Origin: Akkermansia muciniphila
GTDB taxonomy: Bacteria; Verrucomicrobiota; Verrucomicrobiia; Verrucomicrobiales; Akkermansiaceae
NCBI RefSeq assembly: GCF_040616545.1
Contig: NZ_CP156688.1
Coordinates: forward strand, 2,604,001-2,668,000
Direction of reading: 5' to 3'
DNA length: 64,000 nt
Positions 2,560-39,874 of the stretch are shown one piece after another. The first letter of the stretch is position 1. Every line of letters starts with the position of its first letter. The notes beneath the pieces were generated by a model, which saw only the letters and a list, made by a program, of their open reading frames with translations, had not been told where the DNA came from and did no database searches. Made by a program: the position numbers and the translations under genes.

Positions 2560-3669
2560 ATGAGCGAGGCCCCTCACAAAAAGGGAACATCATGGTCCAT
2601 AGGCATCGGCCTGGGGATCGTCGCCCTCTTGATCGGCACGGCCATTATCACGGACCCGTCTTTCTCCTCCTCCGGAGAAAGGGACAAGGCCTCCTCCGCC
2701 GGAACGGCGGAACCCCTGCATTTGCAGGAAAATGTCCTGACCATTTCCGCGCCCGGCGTGGTGAAGGCCTCCCACCTGACCATGCTTTCTCCCGGTGTTT
2801 CCGGAAAAGTGGACAAGGTGCACCCCCTCTTTAACGCGGGGGAAATCATCCTGAAGGGAACCCCCCTGCTGGAGCTGGAAAAATTTGAATACCGCGCCCG
2901 GCTGGCGAATGCCCAAGCGGAACTGGAACAGGCTCGCCTGGACGTCTCCACGGAACAGGCGGAAGCCCTGAAAGCCATTAAAAAGACGTACAGCTCCGTC
3001 TCCAAAAGCGGCAAGGAATCCGAGCTGGTGCTCCGGGTGCCGCAGCGCCGGGCCGTGAACGCGCGGCTGAACGCTGCGGAGGCGTACGTGGCTGAGGCGG
3101 AGCAGGCCCTCCGGGATACGGTGCTGGAAGCCCCCTATACCTGCCAGGTAGTGGAATGTTCCGTAGGCGCCGGGGCCCGCGTAGTTGCCGGGCAACCCGT
3201 GGGAAAGGTGATCCCCCTTCAGGAGCGGATGATACGCGTCCCCGTGCCGCTGGAAGAATTTTCCGCGCTGCCCAGGGATGAGCAGGGTAAAATCAATACG
3301 GCCCTGACCGCCTCCTGCGTGCTGAACAACGGCAAACGCCTGCAATGGCTGGGCCACGTGACGGCGGTAGACTCCGCGCTGGATTCCGAACGCAACTCCG
3401 CCGTGCTGATCGCCTCCCTGGAGCCTAACGGCTCCCACGTTTCCGAATGGCAGGTGGCCCCCGTCAACATGGCCCTTCAGGTGAATATCAACGTTCACGT
3501 TCCCGCCTCCGTATGGATTCCCTCCCAGGCCGTCCGGGATGGGAGCTCCATCCGGGTGAAAACCCCGGAAGGCGTGCAGGAGCGCAAGGTGCACGTGGTG
3601 GCGCTGAAGGACGGCAAATCCCTGGTCACCATCCCGGAATTTCAGGAAGGGGACGCCCTGGTGCTTTAA
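2560..3669 (+). CDS. HlyD-family periplasmic adaptor (membrane fusion) protein
   Basis: A 369-residue protein with one N-terminal membrane segment (about residues 14-31, rich in Ile, Gly and Leu). A lipoyl/biotinyl-like half motif follows (VVKASHLTMLSPGVSGKV), then an alpha-helical hairpin (about 100-180), a second lipoyl half (DTVLEAPYTCQVVE) and a beta-barrel region. This is the layout of HlyD/RND adaptors, which bridge an inner-membrane pump and an outer-membrane channel. No ABC, RND or MFS pump and no TolC-like gene lies beside it, so the transported substrate cannot be inferred. The only same-strand neighbour is the YbjN-like gene. Confidence 0.8.
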   Translation: MSEAPHKKGTSWSIGIGLGIVALLIGTAIITDPSFSSSGERDKASSAGTAEPLHLQENVLTISAPGVVKASHLTMLSPGVSGKVDKVHPLFNAGEIILKGTPLLELEKFEYRARLANAQAELEQARLDVSTEQAEALKAIKKTYSSVSKSGKESELVLRVPQRRAVNARLNAAEAYVAEAEQALRDTVLEAPYTCQVVECSVGAGARVVAGQPVGKVIPLQERMIRVPVPLEEFSALPRDEQGKINTALTASCVLNNGKRLQWLGHVTAVDSALDSERNSAVLIASLEPNGSHVSEWQVAPVNMALQVNINVHVPASVWIPSQAVRDGSSIRVKTPEGVQERKVHVVALKDGKSLVTIPEFQEGDALVL

Positions 3670-3751
3670 AGCTCGCGGGAGGATTTCTTCACTCCCTTCA
3701 CCCGGAAAAGCCGTTCTTTCAACACGTTTTCCGTCACCGGAGCCAGCCCGT

Positions 3752-3784
3752 AAAAAACCATGCCGGCCGGAGGGGAAGGCATGG
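3752..3784 (-). terminator. Rho-independent terminator of the GH36-like gene
   Basis: On the minus strand CCATGCC and GGCATGG form a 7-base stem followed by TTTTTT. It lies just downstream of the stop at 3813. Confidence 0.8.
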
Positions 3785-3812: not shown

Positions 3813-5858
3813 TCAGCGTCCGTCCGTTCTCATGTCAAACACCAGCACCTCAAAGGGCTGGAGCTCCACGCTCACGGGCTTGCCCTGTTCCAGTTTCAGC
3901 GTCTTGACGCGCTGGTCCGGGTAGGAGGCTTTCATGGAGAAAACAGCGGGCTGCCCTGGAACGGGCTCAAAGACGGTCCCGGCATCCAGCTCAATCGACC
4001 GTGGCCTGTCGTCCGGATTGCGGAGGGCCAGCGTGCAGCCCCGCGGGCTCCAGGCCGCGTAACCGTAAGGTTCCAGTTGGTCCGGATTGCCGCCCACCCA
4101 GTGCGCGTCCGCCAGAACGTCCTGGAAGCGCCGCGCCCAGCGTGCCCCCGCCGCTACGTCATCCCATGCCTTTTTGTCCATCATGGCAGGGGTAAGGTAA
4201 AGCTCCTGAAGATTGGCTCCGGAACCAAAATAAATGCGGGCGTCGTTTTTAAGGTCCCTGTTATCCTGTTTCCCGTCCTGCCCCTTGCTGACGCGCTCCG
4301 CCTGGAACTTGGTGCCCAGCACCATGCCATGGTGCATGATGGAGTTCAGCGGGTAAAGGGGACCCGGCTTGACAATGACGTTGTAGCAGGCGCCGTCACG
4401 GAACGTGATCCACTGTTCACGGTCATTTCCCTTGCCGGTCCAGCCCACGTCCGCCGTGCCGCTGCGCCAGGTGGAATCCACATGGTTGAGCCAGAAGGGG
4501 GAGGGCCAGGTACCCACCGTCGTATTAATGAACAGGCGGGGATTTTCCCGGCGAAGCTCGCTGGCGATGGAAAGAAGGGCCATGAAATGGGGGCTGATGC
4601 CGTCCCCGGCCTTGTCCCATTTGAAATATGTCACCTTGTCTTTCTTCATCAGGTCGGAACAGCGTTTTTTGAACCACTCGTAATACTTGGGGAAGGAGAG
4701 GTCGAACCCCGCGGCGTCCGCGGGCAGAATGCCTTTTTCCTTGGCGTGCTGCACCCGCTTTTCCGGGCCAAAATACCCGCCCAGCGGGGAAATCCAGATG
4801 CCGAACCCGGAGGGAATCCGCCCCACCGCCTTGACCACAGGTCCAAATCCGTGCGGAAATTTTTTGGTGGATGGCTGCCAGAGGTCTTCATTCACGTCGT
4901 CCCACCCGTCATCCAGGACAAAGCCGTCCAGCTTCACCTGGCGGGAACCCAGCTCCTTCCTGTATTCTCCGGCGGTCTTGACGAGCGTTTCCTCCGTAGG
5001 GTCCAGGCCGTCGTCATACCAGCCGTTATAATGCAGGAACTGGTGGTAGGGCGCGGCCCGCTCCCGTTCCAGATAATAAAGAAAGCCGCGGCGCAGCTGG
5101 TTTTCCGGCCATACGCCCAGCACCGTGGTGAAAGTCTGGGCGCTTCCCGGCCCCATGGGCAGGTTGCAGTCAAACCCTACGGTCCCCGTTCCGCCGCTAA
5201 CATGCGCCCTGGCTACGGGAAGTTCTATGCCGGCAAACGTGCCCTCCTTCCCGCTGACCAGGGGGCTGCCGGGTACGGAGCCCTTCACGGCCAGGGCGGG
5301 GTCCTTCAAATCAATCAGCTGGATTTTCTTCAAATCCACCTCTCTGGACGCTTCAATCCTGTAGGTTTCCTTGACGTAGGAGGAACCTTCCCTCAATTCC
5401 GCCTTCCAATAAACCGTGAGCCCGCTCTGCTTGTCCCTGAAGACGGCGGAAATCACCGCCCCCTCCAGCCGTTCCCCCAGCCGGGGACTCGCGGCGCGGC
5501 CTTTCAGCGCGCTGATGGTGGGCGTTCCCTCCATCACAAACCGGGAGGAGGGGAGGTTGTAGCCTTCCTTCTCCGTGGAAAGACGGAACAACTCCGGAGC
5601 CTGTCCGCCGGAAGCGTCGTTCTTCTCTCCCTTGCCATCCCGTTCCCGGTTCACGATCCCCAGGGGAACCAGCCTGCTGCCGGAAACCTTCCATGAGGCA
5701 GTCAGCACCTTGTTGCTCAAGGTGTAAACATCTCCCTCCCGATGGGCGGCGGGAGCTCCGGGGGCCGTTCCCGGATAGATGACGGACGCGGCGGCGTCTT
5801 GAAGGCAAACGCAGGAACAGGCCGCCAGGGCAATCACGGGAAGGGATGATACATGCAT
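3813..5858 (-). CDS. Secreted GH36-like glycosidase (putative alpha-galactosidase)
   Basis: 681 residues from the ATG at 5858. The longer open frame to 5888 was not used because the signal peptide begins MHVSSLPVIALAAC. That peptide ends in a possible lipobox (LAAC), so the enzyme may be a lipoprotein. Clan GH-D catalytic features are visible: FVLDDGWDD (residues about 313-321), the nucleophile motif FKWD with Asp415, and WRSGTAD with Asp470 as the likely acid/base. An N-terminal beta domain and a C-terminal beta sandwich flank the barrel. Known relatives act on alpha-linked galactose or N-acetylgalactosamine; which sugar applies here cannot be told. It lies downstream of polA, separated by a terminator. 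Confidence 0.78.
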   Translation of the reverse strand: MHVSSLPVIALAACSCVCLQDAAASVIYPGTAPGAPAAHREGDVYTLSNKVLTASWKVSGSRLVPLGIVNRERDGKGEKNDASGGQAPELFRLSTEKEGYNLPSSRFVMEGTPTISALKGRAASPRLGERLEGAVISAVFRDKQSGLTVYWKAELREGSSYVKETYRIEASREVDLKKIQLIDLKDPALAVKGSVPGSPLVSGKEGTFAGIELPVARAHVSGGTGTVGFDCNLPMGPGSAQTFTTVLGVWPENQLRRGFLYYLERERAAPYHQFLHYNGWYDDGLDPTEETLVKTAGEYRKELGSRQVKLDGFVLDDGWDDVNEDLWQPSTKKFPHGFGPVVKAVGRIPSGFGIWISPLGGYFGPEKRVQHAKEKGILPADAAGFDLSFPKYYEWFKKRCSDLMKKDKVTYFKWDKAGDGISPHFMALLSIASELRRENPRLFINTTVGTWPSPFWLNHVDSTWRSGTADVGWTGKGNDREQWITFRDGACYNVIVKPGPLYPLNSIMHHGMVLGTKFQAERVSKGQDGKQDNRDLKNDARIYFGSGANLQELYLTPAMMDKKAWDDVAAGARWARRFQDVLADAHWVGGNPDQLEPYGYAAWSPRGCTLALRNPDDRPRSIELDAGTVFEPVPGQPAVFSMKASYPDQRVKTLKLEQGKPVSVELQPFEVLVFDMRTDGR

Positions 5859-29516: not shown

Positions 29517-30650
29517 TTAAAAACGTTCCACCAGGAACAGGAACTCCGTCACGTTCTGCGGGCGGTTCCTCAAATTCCGGCTCCCCCGGAAGGTAGCGTA
29601 CGGCGTTTCCAGCGTCACAATGCGGCCCAGGCGCCCCAGGAACTCCGTCATCTCCTCATAGCTGATGAACCCCTCCGAGCTGTAGGAAAGCAGGATAAAC
29701 CTGGCCGGGCACTCTTCCAGCAGCCGGAACAGGGCCGCCGGGGCGTGCTGGCGGCTGTTGTACGTGGAACGCTTCCAATCCGTGGGAATGCCGGAAACGC
29801 GGCTGGTTTCCTCCGGCTTTTCATAGGAAGACAGCAGGTTCAGCATGAAATAATTGGAACCGTACGGATGCTGGTTGTAAGGGGGGTCCAGATACACCAC
29901 ATCCATCTCCGGCAATTCCGCAACCAGTTCATTGGCATCCCGGCAATGGATGGAATATTGGCATTCAAATCTGGAAAACACGGGAAACGGCAGAGAAATA
30001 TCCCCCAGGATACGGGCGAGGGCGTTGCCGCCCGTGCCGCCGAATTTGCCCACGCCCTGCCTGTCCTTGTAAAACCCCTTGAACACGCCGGACGTGTTCG
30101 TATGCACGGAGGCTTCCGCCAGAAGGGGGGCGATGAAATACGGCCTTACTTCTTCCGGAAGCAGGTTGATGGTCTGCCGGGCCGTATCCAGGTACACGGC
30201 ATTGCGGCGTGTATAAAAAACGCGGTCTTCCGGCGTGATGCTGTCCGGATTTTTGGGAGCGTACAATTCCGTGATGAAGCCCTGGTATTCATGCTCTTCC
30301 ATATACCGCAGCAGGCGCCGGTAATGCCTCTCCAGCTCCAGATTCTCCACTTCCTCCGGGTTGCTCAGGTAGCAGGTGTTGACGATGCGGCTGTATTCCT
30401 CCAGATCATTGACAATCAATTCCTCCGAATGCTTCTTCAGGAAACGGGCTACAATGCCGCTGCCGGAAAACAGGTCTCCTGCCCTCAATTTCTCCTTCCC
30501 CAGGCGACTTTTCACCTCCTCCAGCCCCGTACCCAGGAAATGCAGCAGGGAACGCTTGTTGCCCAGATACGTCACAATCTGTTCCGTCAGGTATCTGGGG
30601 TCTTCCTCCATCGGCAGAGCGGGAGTGGATGATGGCTCGTTCCGGGTCAT
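29517..30650 (-). CDS. D12-class N6-adenine DNA methyltransferase
   Basis: 377 residues. The motif order is that of Dam/DpnM-like enzymes: N-terminal YLGNKRSLLHFL, motif I DLFSGSGIVARF (AdoMet binding), and motif IV VYLDPPYNQHPYGSNYF (catalytic DPPY). It would methylate adenine in a short duplex site, not deducible from the sequence. No restriction endonuclease gene is recognisable beside it, so it looks orphan, perhaps regulatory or protective. It starts 22 bases beyond the xerD gene on the same strand and is divergent from an AT-rich gene of probable foreign origin. Confidence 0.88.
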   Translation of the reverse strand: MTRNEPSSTPALPMEEDPRYLTEQIVTYLGNKRSLLHFLGTGLEEVKSRLGKEKLRAGDLFSGSGIVARFLKKHSEELIVNDLEEYSRIVNTCYLSNPEEVENLELERHYRRLLRYMEEHEYQGFITELYAPKNPDSITPEDRVFYTRRNAVYLDTARQTINLLPEEVRPYFIAPLLAEASVHTNTSGVFKGFYKDRQGVGKFGGTGGNALARILGDISLPFPVFSRFECQYSIHCRDANELVAELPEMDVVYLDPPYNQHPYGSNYFMLNLLSSYEKPEETSRVSGIPTDWKRSTYNSRQHAPAALFRLLEECPARFILLSYSSEGFISYEEMTEFLGRLGRIVTLETPYATFRGSRNLRNRPQNVTEFLFLVERF

Positions 30651-30861: not shown

Positions 30862-31545
30862 ATGAATAATTCATATATGGATCAATTCTGCTCAGAGCTG
30901 GTAGCTAATTCCGAATCCAAATGGTTCCTGTCCGCGTTGAGGGAATGGGAACATGTGGAAACATTTTTGGAGGAGGAAGAAGGTACATGCATTTGCGGGC
31001 ACGTTATTAAAGAGAACTGTATCATTCAAAACATGATCAATAGAAAAAAACTAACCGTAGGTAATCACTGTGTGAAAAAATTCATGAACCTTGATATATC
31101 AAAACACTTTGATGCCATCCGCCGGGTCCGGAAAGACATCACTAAGCCTTTTAATCCGGCGTGCCTGCGGGAAGCTTTAAATAGTAAGATCATCAGTGAG
31201 AATGAATGCCGTTTCTATGCTGATACATGGCGGAAGAGAAATCTGACCAAAATAGAGAAGGAGTGGCGTATATCCATCAATAAGAGAATATTGAAAGCAA
31301 AAGAGCAGAATATGCTCCACATTAAAATAAGCATGATAATGAGGTACTTTTTTGGCGTTGGAAGCGGAGGGGTATATCGTAACAATTGCTGGTCTGAACA
31401 CATAGACATTAGACTGAAACAGCTGGGGAACGTGAGGATTCCGGTCAATGGGGAAAAGTTTTACGATTGGATCAGGAAACCCGGCCGTACCCCGCAGGAA
31501 ATTCTTCAAATGCTTCGCCGCAAATTAGATAGGCTTCGTTCATAA
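30862..31545 (+). CDS. AT-rich gene, Cys-motif (putative zinc-binding) protein
   Basis: 227 residues. The gene is clearly more AT-rich than its neighbours, suggesting recent transfer. A probable metal site lies near the N-terminus: Cys43, Cys45 (CICGHVI), Cys53 and Cys70 (VGNHCVKKFM), with a conserved-looking Asn before it. CxCG followed by VGxxC occurs in phage- and plasmid-borne proteins of unknown role; I cannot name a family. The remainder is strongly basic and helical, with many Lys/Arg, which would suit nucleic-acid binding. It is divergent from the D12 methyltransferase, about 210 bases apart. No signal peptide. Confidence 0.75.
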   Translation: MNNSYMDQFCSELVANSESKWFLSALREWEHVETFLEEEEGTCICGHVIKENCIIQNMINRKKLTVGNHCVKKFMNLDISKHFDAIRRVRKDITKPFNPACLREALNSKIISENECRFYADTWRKRNLTKIEKEWRISINKRILKAKEQNMLHIKISMIMRYFFGVGSGGVYRNNCWSEHIDIRLKQLGNVRIPVNGEKFYDWIRKPGRTPQEILQMLRRKLDRLRS

Positions 31546-35169: not shown

Positions 35170-35793
35170 ATGCCCTCTCCCTTTTATTCACATGATATTT
35201 TCATGTTATTCACAACGGCGTGCGTTGCGGTGCTGCTGGAATCGTGCTCCGCGCCCTCCCCTGCTCCGGAAGCCGTGGCCGGATGGTATGAAGGAACCCT
35301 TTATGAAGGCAAGCCTTTCTACATTACTAAAAACGCCATCAGCTGGACCAGCGGTAGGAAAAAGGCGGACTTCGGCGACTGGACCGCCGTCAGCGTGTAT
35401 GACTCCTCCATCCGCCTGGAAGCGGAGGGCGGTACATTCACCATCTCTCCCGGCTACGGCTGGGACGGCGTCACCTGGGGAACCACCCCGCCGGACATGC
35501 TCCTTCCTTCCCTGTTCCACGACGCCATGCTGCACGCCAAAATGAACGGGGCCCCCATCGCCAGAAGCCAGATAGACCTGGCCTTCTACGACCTCATGAC
35601 CACCCAGCACGCCAGCCGCAAGGGACTTTACTACCGCTTTGTACGCCTCTTCGGCTGGTGCTTCACCTTTCCACAGCACCCGCACACGTTGACGGTCCGG
35701 CAGGCGGAGAAGACTTTTCTACCCAACTCTCAAATTCAGCTCAAAGGCGCCTGGGACTGGCGAAACACTACCTTCTTCTTTCCTCCCAAATGA
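35170..35793 (+). CDS. DUF1353-like protein, possibly exported
   Basis: 207 residues. The middle pattern PGYGWDGVTWGTTPPDML, then LPSLFHDAMLHAKM, resembles DUF1353 (WDG and HD pairs), a family of unknown function seen in phages and bacteria. The N-terminus is hydrophobic (LFTTACVAVLLESCSAPSP) with a weak lipobox-like SC; an ATG at 35203 would start right at it. The last 58 bases overlap the convergent TPR gene, an unusual amount for this window. Confidence 0.6.
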   Translation: MPSPFYSHDIFMLFTTACVAVLLESCSAPSPAPEAVAGWYEGTLYEGKPFYITKNAISWTSGRKKADFGDWTAVSVYDSSIRLEAEGGTFTISPGYGWDGVTWGTTPPDMLLPSLFHDAMLHAKMNGAPIARSQIDLAFYDLMTTQHASRKGLYYRFVRLFGWCFTFPQHPHTLTVRQAEKTFLPNSQIQLKGAWDWRNTTFFFPPK

Positions 35794-37760
35794 TGAAGCC
35801 TGAATTTGGCCACATCCACCAGATTGGCAAAATCCCTTAATTTGGGTCCGGCAATCACCTTCTCCAGATATTCCTCCCCATCATGAATGACCGGCAGATA
35901 GCCTACCGACAGACAGTTTTTGCCCGGCAATACCTTGAGGAGAGAATTCTGGTCATGATAAGAATGCAAAGACAGAATCCTCAATTCCTTTTCATCTTTG
36001 AAGGCGGCATCCTTTACTAAATGCCTCAGGTAAATAAGCATTTCCAGAGCGGCCTTTTGAGCCTTTTCGCTGATATGCTCAAAATGCTCCCTAATTTTCC
36101 TCAATGATTTACCGATCTCCTGAAATTTCTTCCTCTCAGATTCTTTCAATGTGTCTTCACAAACGTCAAAATCCTTGTTTAAGGAATATTCAAAACATGC
36201 AGGGGTATAATACATTCGACCGGAAGAGCATTCATAATACAATACCCAGTAAAGAGGCAGTTTGCGGCACATGTTAGCCTCTTTTTTAGAGGAGTCGTCG
36301 TCCTCTTTTTGAACGGCAATCATGGACGTTTCTCCCGGCTTGGCGAAAAAGGATCGGTTAAATACCAGGCACAGCCCGGTTCCTTCCTCCCCCTTGTTCT
36401 TTCCGTAAAGACGAAACTGGTTTAGGGAATCAATTGCAGAAGAAAAGGAAGCCTGCAATACGGCAAGATGACTCTGGATTCTTTGGGAAGGTAGACAATC
36501 CTGCGTCAGAAAGGCCTGAAAAACGGTGCCTTCCGTAGGATCGTTAGCCGCAGCCAGACTGCATAACAACAAGGGGCTTGCTTTCCCGTTCGCTTTCGTC
36601 TGCTTTTGGAGCAAGGTCTCAAATACCATGGAGGATGTATAATGCCCCACTTGCTCAAGATCAGCGTTAAGCAGATACAAGAGTCGATATTGTTCCACCC
36701 ATAGACGGTGGATATGGAATAAATCTTTTCCGGAACATCCTTCCAGTTGTTCCTTGTTTGCCAGGATATTGAAATCATCGTCTCCACTCCATAAATCCAC
36801 CTGGCTATTTTCAGGCAGGCTATCCCAGAATTCCTTGCTTCCTACCAGAGACCTTCGGTTCCGTTTTGCTATTTCGTTATTGGCGTTAATCTGAATGGCT
36901 TGAATATAACACGCTAACGCCTCTTCCCTTTTACCAAGACCGGATAACAAAAGTCCTTTATTGTTTAGGGATGCATCATGATGAGGATTGATTTCCAGGG
37001 CCTTATTGTAACTGGCAAGAGCTTCTTCCTTTCGGCCCAGGTCATCCAGCACATTACCTCTGTTGTAATAGGCCGCCCCATAGTCAGGATTGATTTCCAG
37101 GGCCTTATTGTAACTGGCAAGAGCTTCCTCCTTTCTCCCCAAATCATCCAGGACGTTTCCCCTGTTGTAATAAGCCGCATCGTAACCAGGATTGGCCTCC
37201 AGCGCCTTGTTATAGCTGGAAAGAGCCTCCTCCTTCCGCCCTAAACTTTTCAGGATAATTCCTCTATTACAATAAGCCTTATCATAATCAGGTTTGATTT
37301 CCAACGCCTTGTCGTAGCTATCCAGCGCTTCTTCCTTCCGCTTGAGATCATTCAGGATATTTCCTTTATTATAATAGGCTGCATAATCCTCAGGGTTGAT
37401 CTGTAACGCTTTGCCATAGCTTACCAACGCTTCCTCCTTCCGACCGAGATCATTCAGAATATATCCCCTATTGTAATGGGCAGCATCATTCCGAGGGTTG
37501 ATTTCCAATGATTTGTCGTAGCTGGACAGCGCTTCCTCCTGCCTTCCTAATTTTTTCAACACAATGCCCCTGTTACAATAGGCTTTATCGTAAGCAGGAT
37601 TGATTTCCAGCGCCTTGTTGTAGCTGTCCAGCGCTTCCCTGCTCCGTCCAAGATCATCCAGAACATTTCCTTTCTTCACATAAGCTGTGAAATTTTCAGG
37701 ATCAAGAACAATCTCACGCTCCCATTTTTCCAATTCCTCCTGCAACTTTTCTTCATCCAT
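35736..37760 (-). CDS. TPR-DUF2971 protein
   Basis: 674 residues. Residues about 23-296 form eight tetratricopeptide units of 34 residues, most with the core NRGNVLDDLGRKEEAL. The C-terminal half (about 350-674) has DUF2971 landmarks: HYTSSMVFETLL, AANDPTEG, ASFSSAIDSLNQFRLYG and GTGLCLVF. It has no signal peptide or membrane segment. The gene is more AT-rich than its neighbours, which suggests transfer. DUF2971 is of unknown function and is often found in variable regions; the TPR part suggests partner binding or sensing. A defence-related role is conjecture. Some TPR units are nearly identical at the base level, implying recent duplication. Confidence 0.8.
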   Translation of the reverse strand: MDEEKLQEELEKWEREIVLDPENFTAYVKKGNVLDDLGRSREALDSYNKALEINPAYDKAYCNRGIVLKKLGRQEEALSSYDKSLEINPRNDAAHYNRGYILNDLGRKEEALVSYGKALQINPEDYAAYYNKGNILNDLKRKEEALDSYDKALEIKPDYDKAYCNRGIILKSLGRKEEALSSYNKALEANPGYDAAYYNRGNVLDDLGRKEEALASYNKALEINPDYGAAYYNRGNVLDDLGRKEEALASYNKALEINPHHDASLNNKGLLLSGLGKREEALACYIQAIQINANNEIAKRNRRSLVGSKEFWDSLPENSQVDLWSGDDDFNILANKEQLEGCSGKDLFHIHRLWVEQYRLLYLLNADLEQVGHYTSSMVFETLLQKQTKANGKASPLLLCSLAAANDPTEGTVFQAFLTQDCLPSQRIQSHLAVLQASFSSAIDSLNQFRLYGKNKGEEGTGLCLVFNRSFFAKPGETSMIAVQKEDDDSSKKEANMCRKLPLYWVLYYECSSGRMYYTPACFEYSLNKDFDVCEDTLKESERKKFQEIGKSLRKIREHFEHISEKAQKAALEMLIYLRHLVKDAAFKDEKELRILSLHSYHDQNSLLKVLPGKNCLSVGYLPVIHDGEEYLEKVIAGPKLRDFANLVDVAKFRLHHLGGKKKVVFRQSQAPLS
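36983..37187 (-). repeat. Two near-identical tandem 102-base TPR repeats
   Basis: Two neighbouring TPR units share long runs of identical bases, such as GATTGATTTCCAGGGCCTTA at about 36989 and again at about 37091, one 102-base unit apart. The other units are more diverged. Confidence 0.75.
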
Positions 37761-37859
37761 GCCAAATCAAACTTGAATATATCCAATACTATCCAAAACA
37801 AAAACCTTTGAAAAGCAGATAATAGAAAGGAAAGTAATTCAGTGGAGAGAAGAAGCCGC

Positions 37860-38756
37860 TTATTCCTCAATAGGCGTGGCTTCGGGAATGTATTCATTCC
37901 CGGAGGGGGCCGTCTGGCGGGTTTCCGTGACGAAGCCAAGGACGCGGTCCACGTCCAACTGGGACAGGACGGAGCGCACGTCCTGGTCTTCCAGGAAGCG
38001 GGTAAGCTTGACGTCGTTGTAAAGGCCCTGCATGTCCCCCTTCTCCACCAGCAGGCGGATGGCGGGGTCTTCACTCAGGCTTTTCAGGCTCAGCACGCGG
38101 CTGGTGATGCGGGAGCGGGGCATGTAGCAGTCCAGCTGGGTGCGGCGCTGGTCGGAGAGTTCCGGGCTGAGCGTCACCAGGTAGGCAATCATTTTTGCCA
38201 GGGAGAGGCGTTCCGGATCATGCTCCGGGGAGATGGTCACCAGCCAGTTCAGGTGGGGATTGTCCGTGATGGATTTCTTGACGGAATAAATAGCGGGCAG
38301 GGAGATGGTGCGGTTGGGGTCCATGTGATACAGAGCCAGTTCACGGGCGCGCGTCATTTCCGCCATGGAGCCGTAGTAGAAGATGCACATGACGCCCACC
38401 CAGCAGACGACCGCCGCCATCAGAATGGTGGTGACAATGCCTTTGGCCCCGCCGAAGCCCATACGCCGCCCCCAGGAGAAGACGTCGCTGAACCAGAACA
38501 GGCCGTGCATGAAGATGAAGAAGACCGCCGCCGCCCCTCCGACGGACAGCACGGTGACCATCCATTCCCGTGGGTCGCTGGTGATGAAGGAGAGATAGGT
38601 AAAACCGTATTTGGACAGCCAGAAGTAAGCCGCCACGGCGGATAGCACCGCCGCGCCGAACAGGAGCATCTTAATCATCCCTTTCAGCATGCCGAGCACG
38701 ATGAAGCCGACCAGCAGCGCGCCCAGTACCAGGTAGAATGTGAGGGAGGAGTCCAT
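37860..38756 (-). CDS. CvpA-like membrane protein
   Basis: 298 residues from the ATG at 38756 (MDSSLTFYLVLGALLVGFIV); a longer frame overlaps aroC. Four hydrophobic helices in the first 160 residues (LVLGALLVGFIVLGML, MLLFGAAVLSAVAAYF and others) resemble CvpA/colicin V production proteins. The C-terminal half is cytoplasmic or periplasmic and charged. The exact role is unknown; the classical name comes from colicin V export. It follows aroC by 32 bases on the same strand. Confidence 0.6.
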   Translation of the reverse strand: MDSSLTFYLVLGALLVGFIVLGMLKGMIKMLLFGAAVLSAVAAYFWLSKYGFTYLSFITSDPREWMVTVLSVGGAAAVFFIFMHGLFWFSDVFSWGRRMGFGGAKGIVTTILMAAVVCWVGVMCIFYYGSMAEMTRARELALYHMDPNRTISLPAIYSVKKSITDNPHLNWLVTISPEHDPERLSLAKMIAYLVTLSPELSDQRRTQLDCYMPRSRITSRVLSLKSLSEDPAIRLLVEKGDMQGLYNDVKLTRFLEDQDVRSVLSQLDVDRVLGFVTETRQTAPSGNEYIPEATPIEE

Positions 38757-38788
38757 GAATGACAGGAAAGAAGCCGCGGAACCGATTG

Positions 38789-39874
38789 TTACAGCGCCCG
38801 CTGGCAGCGCTGGCGCAGGTAGTGGTCGCACAGGCAGAGCCACGCCATGGCCTCCACAATGGGCACGGCGCGCGGCAGAACGCAGGCGTCATGCCGTCCC
38901 CTGCCCTTGAGCCGGGCATCCTCCCCTGCCTGGTTGACCGTCTGCTGGTCAATCATGAGCGTGGCGGTGGGCTTGAAGCCGATGCGCATCAGGATGTCTT
39001 CTCCGTTGGAGATGCCGCCCTGAATGCCGCCGGAGTGGTTGGTGACGGTGTGCACATGGCCGTCCCGCATGTAAAAAGGATCGTTGTGTTCCAGCCCGGT
39101 CATCTCCGCCGCCTCAAAGCCGGAGCCCACGGCAAAGGCCTTGGTGGCGGGAATGCTCATCATGGCGTGGGCCAGCGTGGCGTCCAGCTTGTCAAAGACG
39201 GGGTCCCCCAGTCCGGGAGGGCAGCCGCGCACCACGCATTTGACCACGCCGCCCAGGGAGTTGCCGGCATCCCGCGCCTCCTTGATGGCGGCAATCATGG
39301 CCTCCACCACGGAGGGGTCCGCCGTGCGGACGATGTTGCTTTCAATGACGGAGGCCGTGACGGCCTCCCAGTCCACGGAGGCTTTCACCTGGTGCACCTG
39401 GTCCACCCAGGCCAGGACGTCCATGTCCGGAAAGGCCTGCTTCAGCACGGCCCTGGCCACGGCTCCGGCGGCCACGCGGCCGATGGTTTCCCGCGCGGAG
39501 GCCCTGCCCCCGCCCGCCCAGGCGCGGATGCCGTATTTGGCGTCATACGTGTAGTCTGCGTGGGAGGGGCGGTACGTGTGGGCCATTTCATCATAGGCGG
39601 AGGAACGGTGGTCCTTGTTCCGCACGCTGATGGCGATGGGCGTTCCCAGGGTTTTGCCGTCCAGCACGCCGGAAAGGATTTCCGCGCAGTCTTCCTCCTT
39701 GCGGGGGGTCACGATGTCGCTCTGCCCCGGCCTGCGCCGGTCCAGCTCCCGCTGAATGTCTTCTTCCGTCACCGGGACAAGGGACGGACAGCCGTCAATC
39801 ACCACACCCACCCCGGCTCCATGGGACTCACCCCAGGTGGAGATTCTGAACACCTGACCAAAACTGCTGGACAT
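38789..39874 (-). CDS. aroC: Chorismate synthase
   Basis: 361 residues, normal length. It carries the signatures [48 protein letters not shown] and [20 protein letters not shown]. It converts EPSP to chorismate using reduced FMN, the last common step to aromatic amino acids. EPSP synthase (aroA) is also in this window but is not linked. It is separated from the HU gene upstream by a terminator and followed by the CvpA-like gene. Confidence 0.97.

Follow-up and report, generated by a model that had tools for sequence, protein, structure and literature searches.

A TPR-DUF2971 gene at an allele-swapping accessory site of Akkermansia and its possible role in defence

Between two core genes of Akkermansia muciniphila lies an accessory, horizontally exchanged gene that encodes a TPR array and a DUF2971 domain on a single chain. 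We propose that its product is a repeat-sensor/effector protein with ADP-ribosyltransferase (ART)-like chemistry and probably an anti-phage role, a reading to which we give a probability of about 0.45. The gene was found in a window of 64,000 nucleotides (the whole stretch of DNA analysed; contig NZ_CP156688.1, positions 2,604,001 to 2,668,000) and, given the kinship of its DUF2971 domain to known and candidate anti-phage proteins, could plausibly act as a self-contained defence protein. In the proposed mechanism the N-terminal TPR array, which varies in repeat number, would be the likely binding or sensing part and the C-terminal DUF2971 domain, a predicted ART-like enzyme (H-Y...E), the likely effector. 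A phage (or stress) cue bound by the TPRs would lead to modification of a cellular or phage target, and this modification may in turn halt growth or phage production, in the former case a putatively abortive outcome. DUF2971 is already known as a PADLOC candidate, and the defence reading is partly anticipated there. New here are a variant fused to TPRs, found at a site of Akkermansia where alleles are swapped, its streptococcal parallel, the homology of DUF2971 to AbiGi and, tentatively, an ART-like fold.

The gene occupies positions 35736-37760 of the window on the minus strand (stop codon included) and, from an ATG start, encodes 674 aa in the order TPR units, linker and C-terminal domain. 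The eight TPRs called in the initial annotation are borne out by PF00515, which matches the protein in 8 stretches above the Pfam cut-off (E = 8.7e-76, 247 bits); the 34-aa units begin at residues 26, 60, 94, 128, 162, 196, 230 and 264, and the array spans residues 26-297 (36870-37685, minus strand). Repeat number differs across orthologues (8 in the window and in genome G017, 2 in G116, at least 7 in G131, where the contig ends). The AT-rich, foreign-looking composition also noted at the outset is real, with a GC content of 45.2% (GC3 49.7%) for the gene, against about 58-62% for its surroundings, and of 44-47% for the 1-kb bins from 36001 to 38000, where neighbouring bins mostly have 55-65%, and all five homologue copies examined in Akkermansia are AT-rich. 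A promoter and terminator scan returned sites no commoner than in shuffled sequence.

When the whole protein was searched against Pfam, NCBIfam, PHROGs and PADLOC, TPR matches dominated and the C-terminus was uninformative. In Pfam, the C-terminal 335 aa matched PF11185 (DUF2971) with an E-value of 4.9e-4 and a score of 21.8 bits, 0.2 below the curated cut-off of 22 bits, and no match to a housekeeping enzyme was found. The orthologues of G093 and G116 score 25.3 bits, above the cut-off, and streptococcal relatives score 25.1 and 28.8 bits. Consistent with this, hhalign of five orthologous domains against seven distant DUF2971 proteins gave a probability of 96.6 (E = 4.8e-10, 228 columns), so the DUF2971 call of the initial annotation was right. 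From PF11185, hhalign, invariant columns and an AlphaFold2 model, we place the DUF2971-like domain at residues 367-674 (35739-36662, minus strand). In a 63-sequence alignment that includes the window copy, H373, Y374, N406, D407, E410, L446, R450, Y452, Y508, K583, E590, E592 and R594 are invariant, as is the signature H-Y, NDxxE, (W/F)RxY and K...ExExR. The three motifs on which the initial call had relied, HYTS (373-376), NDPTEG (406-411) and FRLYG (449-453), coincide with three invariant segments of this alignment. The family is widespread on plasmids and in viral contigs: a single query matched 603 plasmid records, and viral contigs yielded 95 matches. Phage records searched with the window domain, and viral contigs searched with the alignment of the window subfamily, gave no match. 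A literature search returned no functional evidence for DUF2971, and one incidental mention in the open literature.

AlphaFold2 modelled the window domain with a pLDDT of 83 and a pTM of 0.85, and a compact DUF2971 relative with a pLDDT of 91. Comparison of the window domain model with known folds, which the initial annotation had suggested, gave no useful Foldseek match in the PDB and viral libraries, with no ART among the matches listed. For the compact relative, the best PDB match was the DarT toxin (E = 8.7e-3, probability 0.87, TM 0.34) and Tpt1 2'-phosphotransferases stood at ranks 7 and 10; we take DarT and the two Tpt1 matches to be ART folds. Tox-ART-HYD1 was the sole other Pfam family that came up in three or more of the scanned proteins (10 of 63), with matches that, where inspected, cover just the first 20-26 residues. 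Genomes of the class were searched for Tox-ART-HYD1 as material for a fuller profile comparison; none matched, and neither did any control genome. At the profile level Tpt1 scored 22.4, just over its control maximum of 19.2, and DarT scored 21.6, inside its control range (maximum 22.5). DarT, Tpt1 and Tox-ART-HYD1 all align to one H-x-T (HYT) strand-helix motif. In the models H-Y falls in strand one and ExE where a later strand begins, and this predicted order would fit ARTs of the H-Y-E type, a class described elsewhere (PMC3482391, PMC11618068). DarT and Tpt1 thus resemble DUF2971 in a weak fold match, in the H-x-T strand-helix and in the invariant H-Y...E pattern; they differ in the low TM value of the DarT match and in that no macrodomain antitoxin gene lies beside the window gene, and catalysis by DUF2971 is only predicted. 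An ART-like fold for DUF2971 is, from these models, suggestive only.

The same data could be read as those of a defence or abortive-infection effector whose DUF2971/AbiGi domain has, instead of an ART fold, that of some other enzyme or a binding fold, with an HYT motif that looks like those of ARTs by chance. Such a reading draws on the two good models, neither of which has a PDB match at E ≤ 0.001, on the lack of any sequence relative of the domain in the PDB and on the dependence of the ART matches upon a single motif of ~20 residues. We nonetheless consider it unlikely, given that three different ART-fold entries fall within the top ten PDB matches, that DarT, Tpt1 and Tox-ART-HYD1 each match the same strand-helix, and that the H-Y...Y...ExE residues are invariant.

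The proposed role in defence draws on two links. The first is to PDC-S31, a single-gene phage defence candidate of PADLOC that belongs to the same domain family as the window gene and corresponds to DUF2971; its models match 42 of the 63 DUF2971 proteins. The initial annotation's description of the system as undescribed therefore does not wholly stand. A guilt-by-embedding method put the PDCs forward as candidates, and most are without experimental validation (PMC12988326). The match to PDC-S31 reaches 6e-29 for a stand-alone DUF2971 protein of Akkermansia and about 1e-8 to 1e-9 for three streptococcal proteins with repeats and DUF2971; in the subfamily of the window gene 3 of 5 members match weakly (best E = 0.001), and the window copy gave no match to the PDC-S31 models. 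These models span 208-273 positions, whereas the window gene adds eight TPRs and its domain is too divergent for detection. One Akkermansia gene for a stand-alone DUF2971 protein (2862-3773 of locus L160) lies directly downstream of one for a 505-aa protein (3826-5343), and the pair is possibly a two-gene unit.

The second link is to AbiGi (PF10899). Profiles of DUF2971 and AbiGi aligned with a score of 77.8 (E = 7e-11), whereas none of 60 column-shuffled controls scored above 18.2. When AbiGi was represented by its two strongest sequences only, the match contracted to a motif of 13 columns, which scored 29.1 (control maximum 19.9); weaker AbiGi sequences bridge the two families, and the subsets also beat their controls. 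A direct comparison of the window subfamily profile with AbiGi scored 17.7, no better than its controls (maximum 22.1). As far as profile comparison can tell, DUF2971 is thus homologous to AbiGi at the level of the family, not for the window subfamily alone, and the two have the segments CFxE/SFS, YG...G and ExEWR in common. AbiG is a bicistronic abortive-infection system of lactococci (abiGi/abiGii), and in a published screen neither of its components alone inhibited growth of E. coli (PMC3985639). Unlike AbiG, the Akkermansia gene has TPRs and no partner gene; abiGii is absent from the site, where the gene for a CvpA-like membrane protein lies on one side and a lipoprotein-like ORF on the other. 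On an E. coli plasmid, one DUF2971 copy adjoins an Abi_C/AbiJ-type gene. Avs-type STAND sensors also combine TPR-like repeats, their proposed sensing part, with an effector in a single protein; the window protein resembles them in joining a proposed sensor array to a likely effector and differs in having no NTPase module.

The closest DUF2971 proteins that we found outside Akkermansia are encoded on streptococcal megaplasmids (rep_cluster_199), upstream of xerS. Like the Akkermansia gene, WP_080610167, WP_181671357 and WP_181717257 have a helical-repeat array of variable length before a related DUF2971 domain (~27% identity), and like it they evolve faster than their flanks. The arrays are very unequal in length (the proteins have 606, 783 and 1223 aa in total), the DUF2971 parts are 63-73% identical to each other against mostly 92-98% for neighbouring genes, and dN is 0.17-0.24 in the DUF2971 part against 0.007-0.03 in the neighbours. 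Unlike those of Akkermansia, the streptococcal repeats are ~41 aa long and only marginally TPR-like, and the genes are carried on plasmids, next to xerS or close by. A DUF2971 domain that is joined to an expandable repeat array and diverges fast is therefore seen twice, in Akkermansia and, independently, on streptococcal plasmids. Directly downstream of one repeat-DUF2971 gene, on the opposite strand, a Streptococcus salivarius plasmid carries an annotated ADP-ribosyltransferase gene (L073, 7353-8021).

Turning to the Akkermansia site, the upstream flank is a core gene for a conserved membrane protein (37860-38843, minus strand; weak Colicin_V/CvpA-like match, E = 0.4) that adjoins the site in relatives both with and without the TPR-DUF2971 gene. 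The downstream flank, a lipoprotein-like core ORF (35170-35793, plus strand), shows an identity of 77% or more across 11 genomes of Akkermansia, again with or without the gene. This ORF matches PHROG 1158 (E = 1.5e-8), a tail assembly chaperone, and has distant copies in many Akkermansia genomes. Its C-terminus is extended in the window genome, which produces the 58-bp convergent overlap with the TPR-DUF2971 gene (35736-35793) that the initial annotation had correctly pointed out. In G017, G102 and G116 the lipoprotein stops short of this stretch and the overlap is absent, so that it seems incidental to the window genome and looks like a local accident, no feature of the system.

Five further genomes of Akkermansia have an orthologue at this site; four of these were aligned (69-88% identity to the window protein), and wherever the locus was readable the same pair of core genes bounds it. 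The gene has open frames in six genomes and is absent from most. Among the other loci, two (L049 and L050) have an empty site of ~280 bp between the conserved flanks, L048 has a flavodoxin gene and L051 an unrelated epimerase-like gene, a matching fragment of which is found in L053, and L052 keeps a decayed stub, the first ~48 codons of the TPR gene. We conclude from this variety of empty, otherwise filled and decayed states that this is a small insertion spot for accessory genes rather than a defence island, and that the gene is accessory, as the initial annotation had it, sporadic among relatives and old in Akkermansia. The survey of neighbourhoods for defence islands, likewise suggested there, found none around the window gene or in the orthologous loci that were read, each with a single gene between core genes. 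Of the defence role proposed in the initial annotation, the role itself is therefore plausible in view of PDC-S31 and the AbiGi homology, while a setting in a defence island is rejected for the window gene, the flanks of which are core genes. In some Akkermansia genomes the flavodoxin-like gene occurs at the site by itself, next to the TPR-DUF2971 gene or next to what is left of it (L002, 757-1191; L048; L052). The epimerase-like gene is NAD-epimerase-like, AT-rich and foreign-looking (genome G004, with the matching fragment in G229; L051, L053 and L165, 5100-5978).

Alleles at this site have been swapped. Between the window and G102, of the same species, the C-terminal domain has a dS of 1.38 and a dN of 0.187, against a dS of 0.01-0.14 in the flanking genes, and the allele closest to that of the window is in another species (G017). 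The topologies of gene and flanks conflict, each being rejected against the other by the AU test (p-AU 6e-52 and 2e-11), from which it follows that alleles were exchanged. These alleles are also under purifying selection, with an omega of 0.08-0.14 in every part of the protein between the window and G017. Positive selection in the TPRs was sought in the same comparison and none was found: the 33 differences are scattered across the positions of the repeat, and omega is 0.08. Because purifying selection acts on all parts, the divergence is better explained by old alleles exchanged through recombination than by positive selection.

An accessory gene kept under purifying selection need not serve defence; it may have another role, for example as a modification enzyme in regulation or the stress response, with TPRs that, as general protein-binding repeats, bind a host partner. 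Such a role would suit a gene that stands by itself between core genes and has no defence genes next to it. We hold this to be quite unlikely, as its presence is patchy and its alleles are swapped, DUF2971 is common on plasmids and viral contigs and is listed as PDC-S31, and the domain family is homologous to AbiGi. That the gene is transferred cargo, decaying or neutral, which makes no difference to its host is very improbable: a decayed remnant does lie at the same site in G198 and most Akkermansia genomes are without the gene, but the dN/dS of ~0.1 to 0.2 between intact alleles and the open frames in six genomes largely refute it.

If DUF2971 is tied to AbiGi and to a defence candidate and, tentatively, has an ART fold, then its invariant residues become candidates for catalysis in two uncharacterised families at once. 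That some versions are fused to repeats suggests that one protein can combine sensor and effector, and the Akkermansia locus supplies naturally swapped alleles in a gut commensal. A bolder and rather doubtful extension is that DUF2971, AbiGi and related domains may form one ART-like superfamily of immune effectors, of which the Akkermansia and streptococcal proteins would be self-contained forms whose expandable array senses phage, and that swapped alleles at a fixed locus might track changing phages.

Elsewhere in the window, a D12-class methyltransferase gene (29517-30650; PADLOC MTase_II, E = 2.4e-116) was rejected as a partner of the TPR-DUF2971 gene, being conserved in L003 and L004 and 5 kb off. 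Adjoining it is a second AT-rich ORF of no clear family (30862-31545, plus strand), which encodes 227 aa and lies in a bin of 48% GC.
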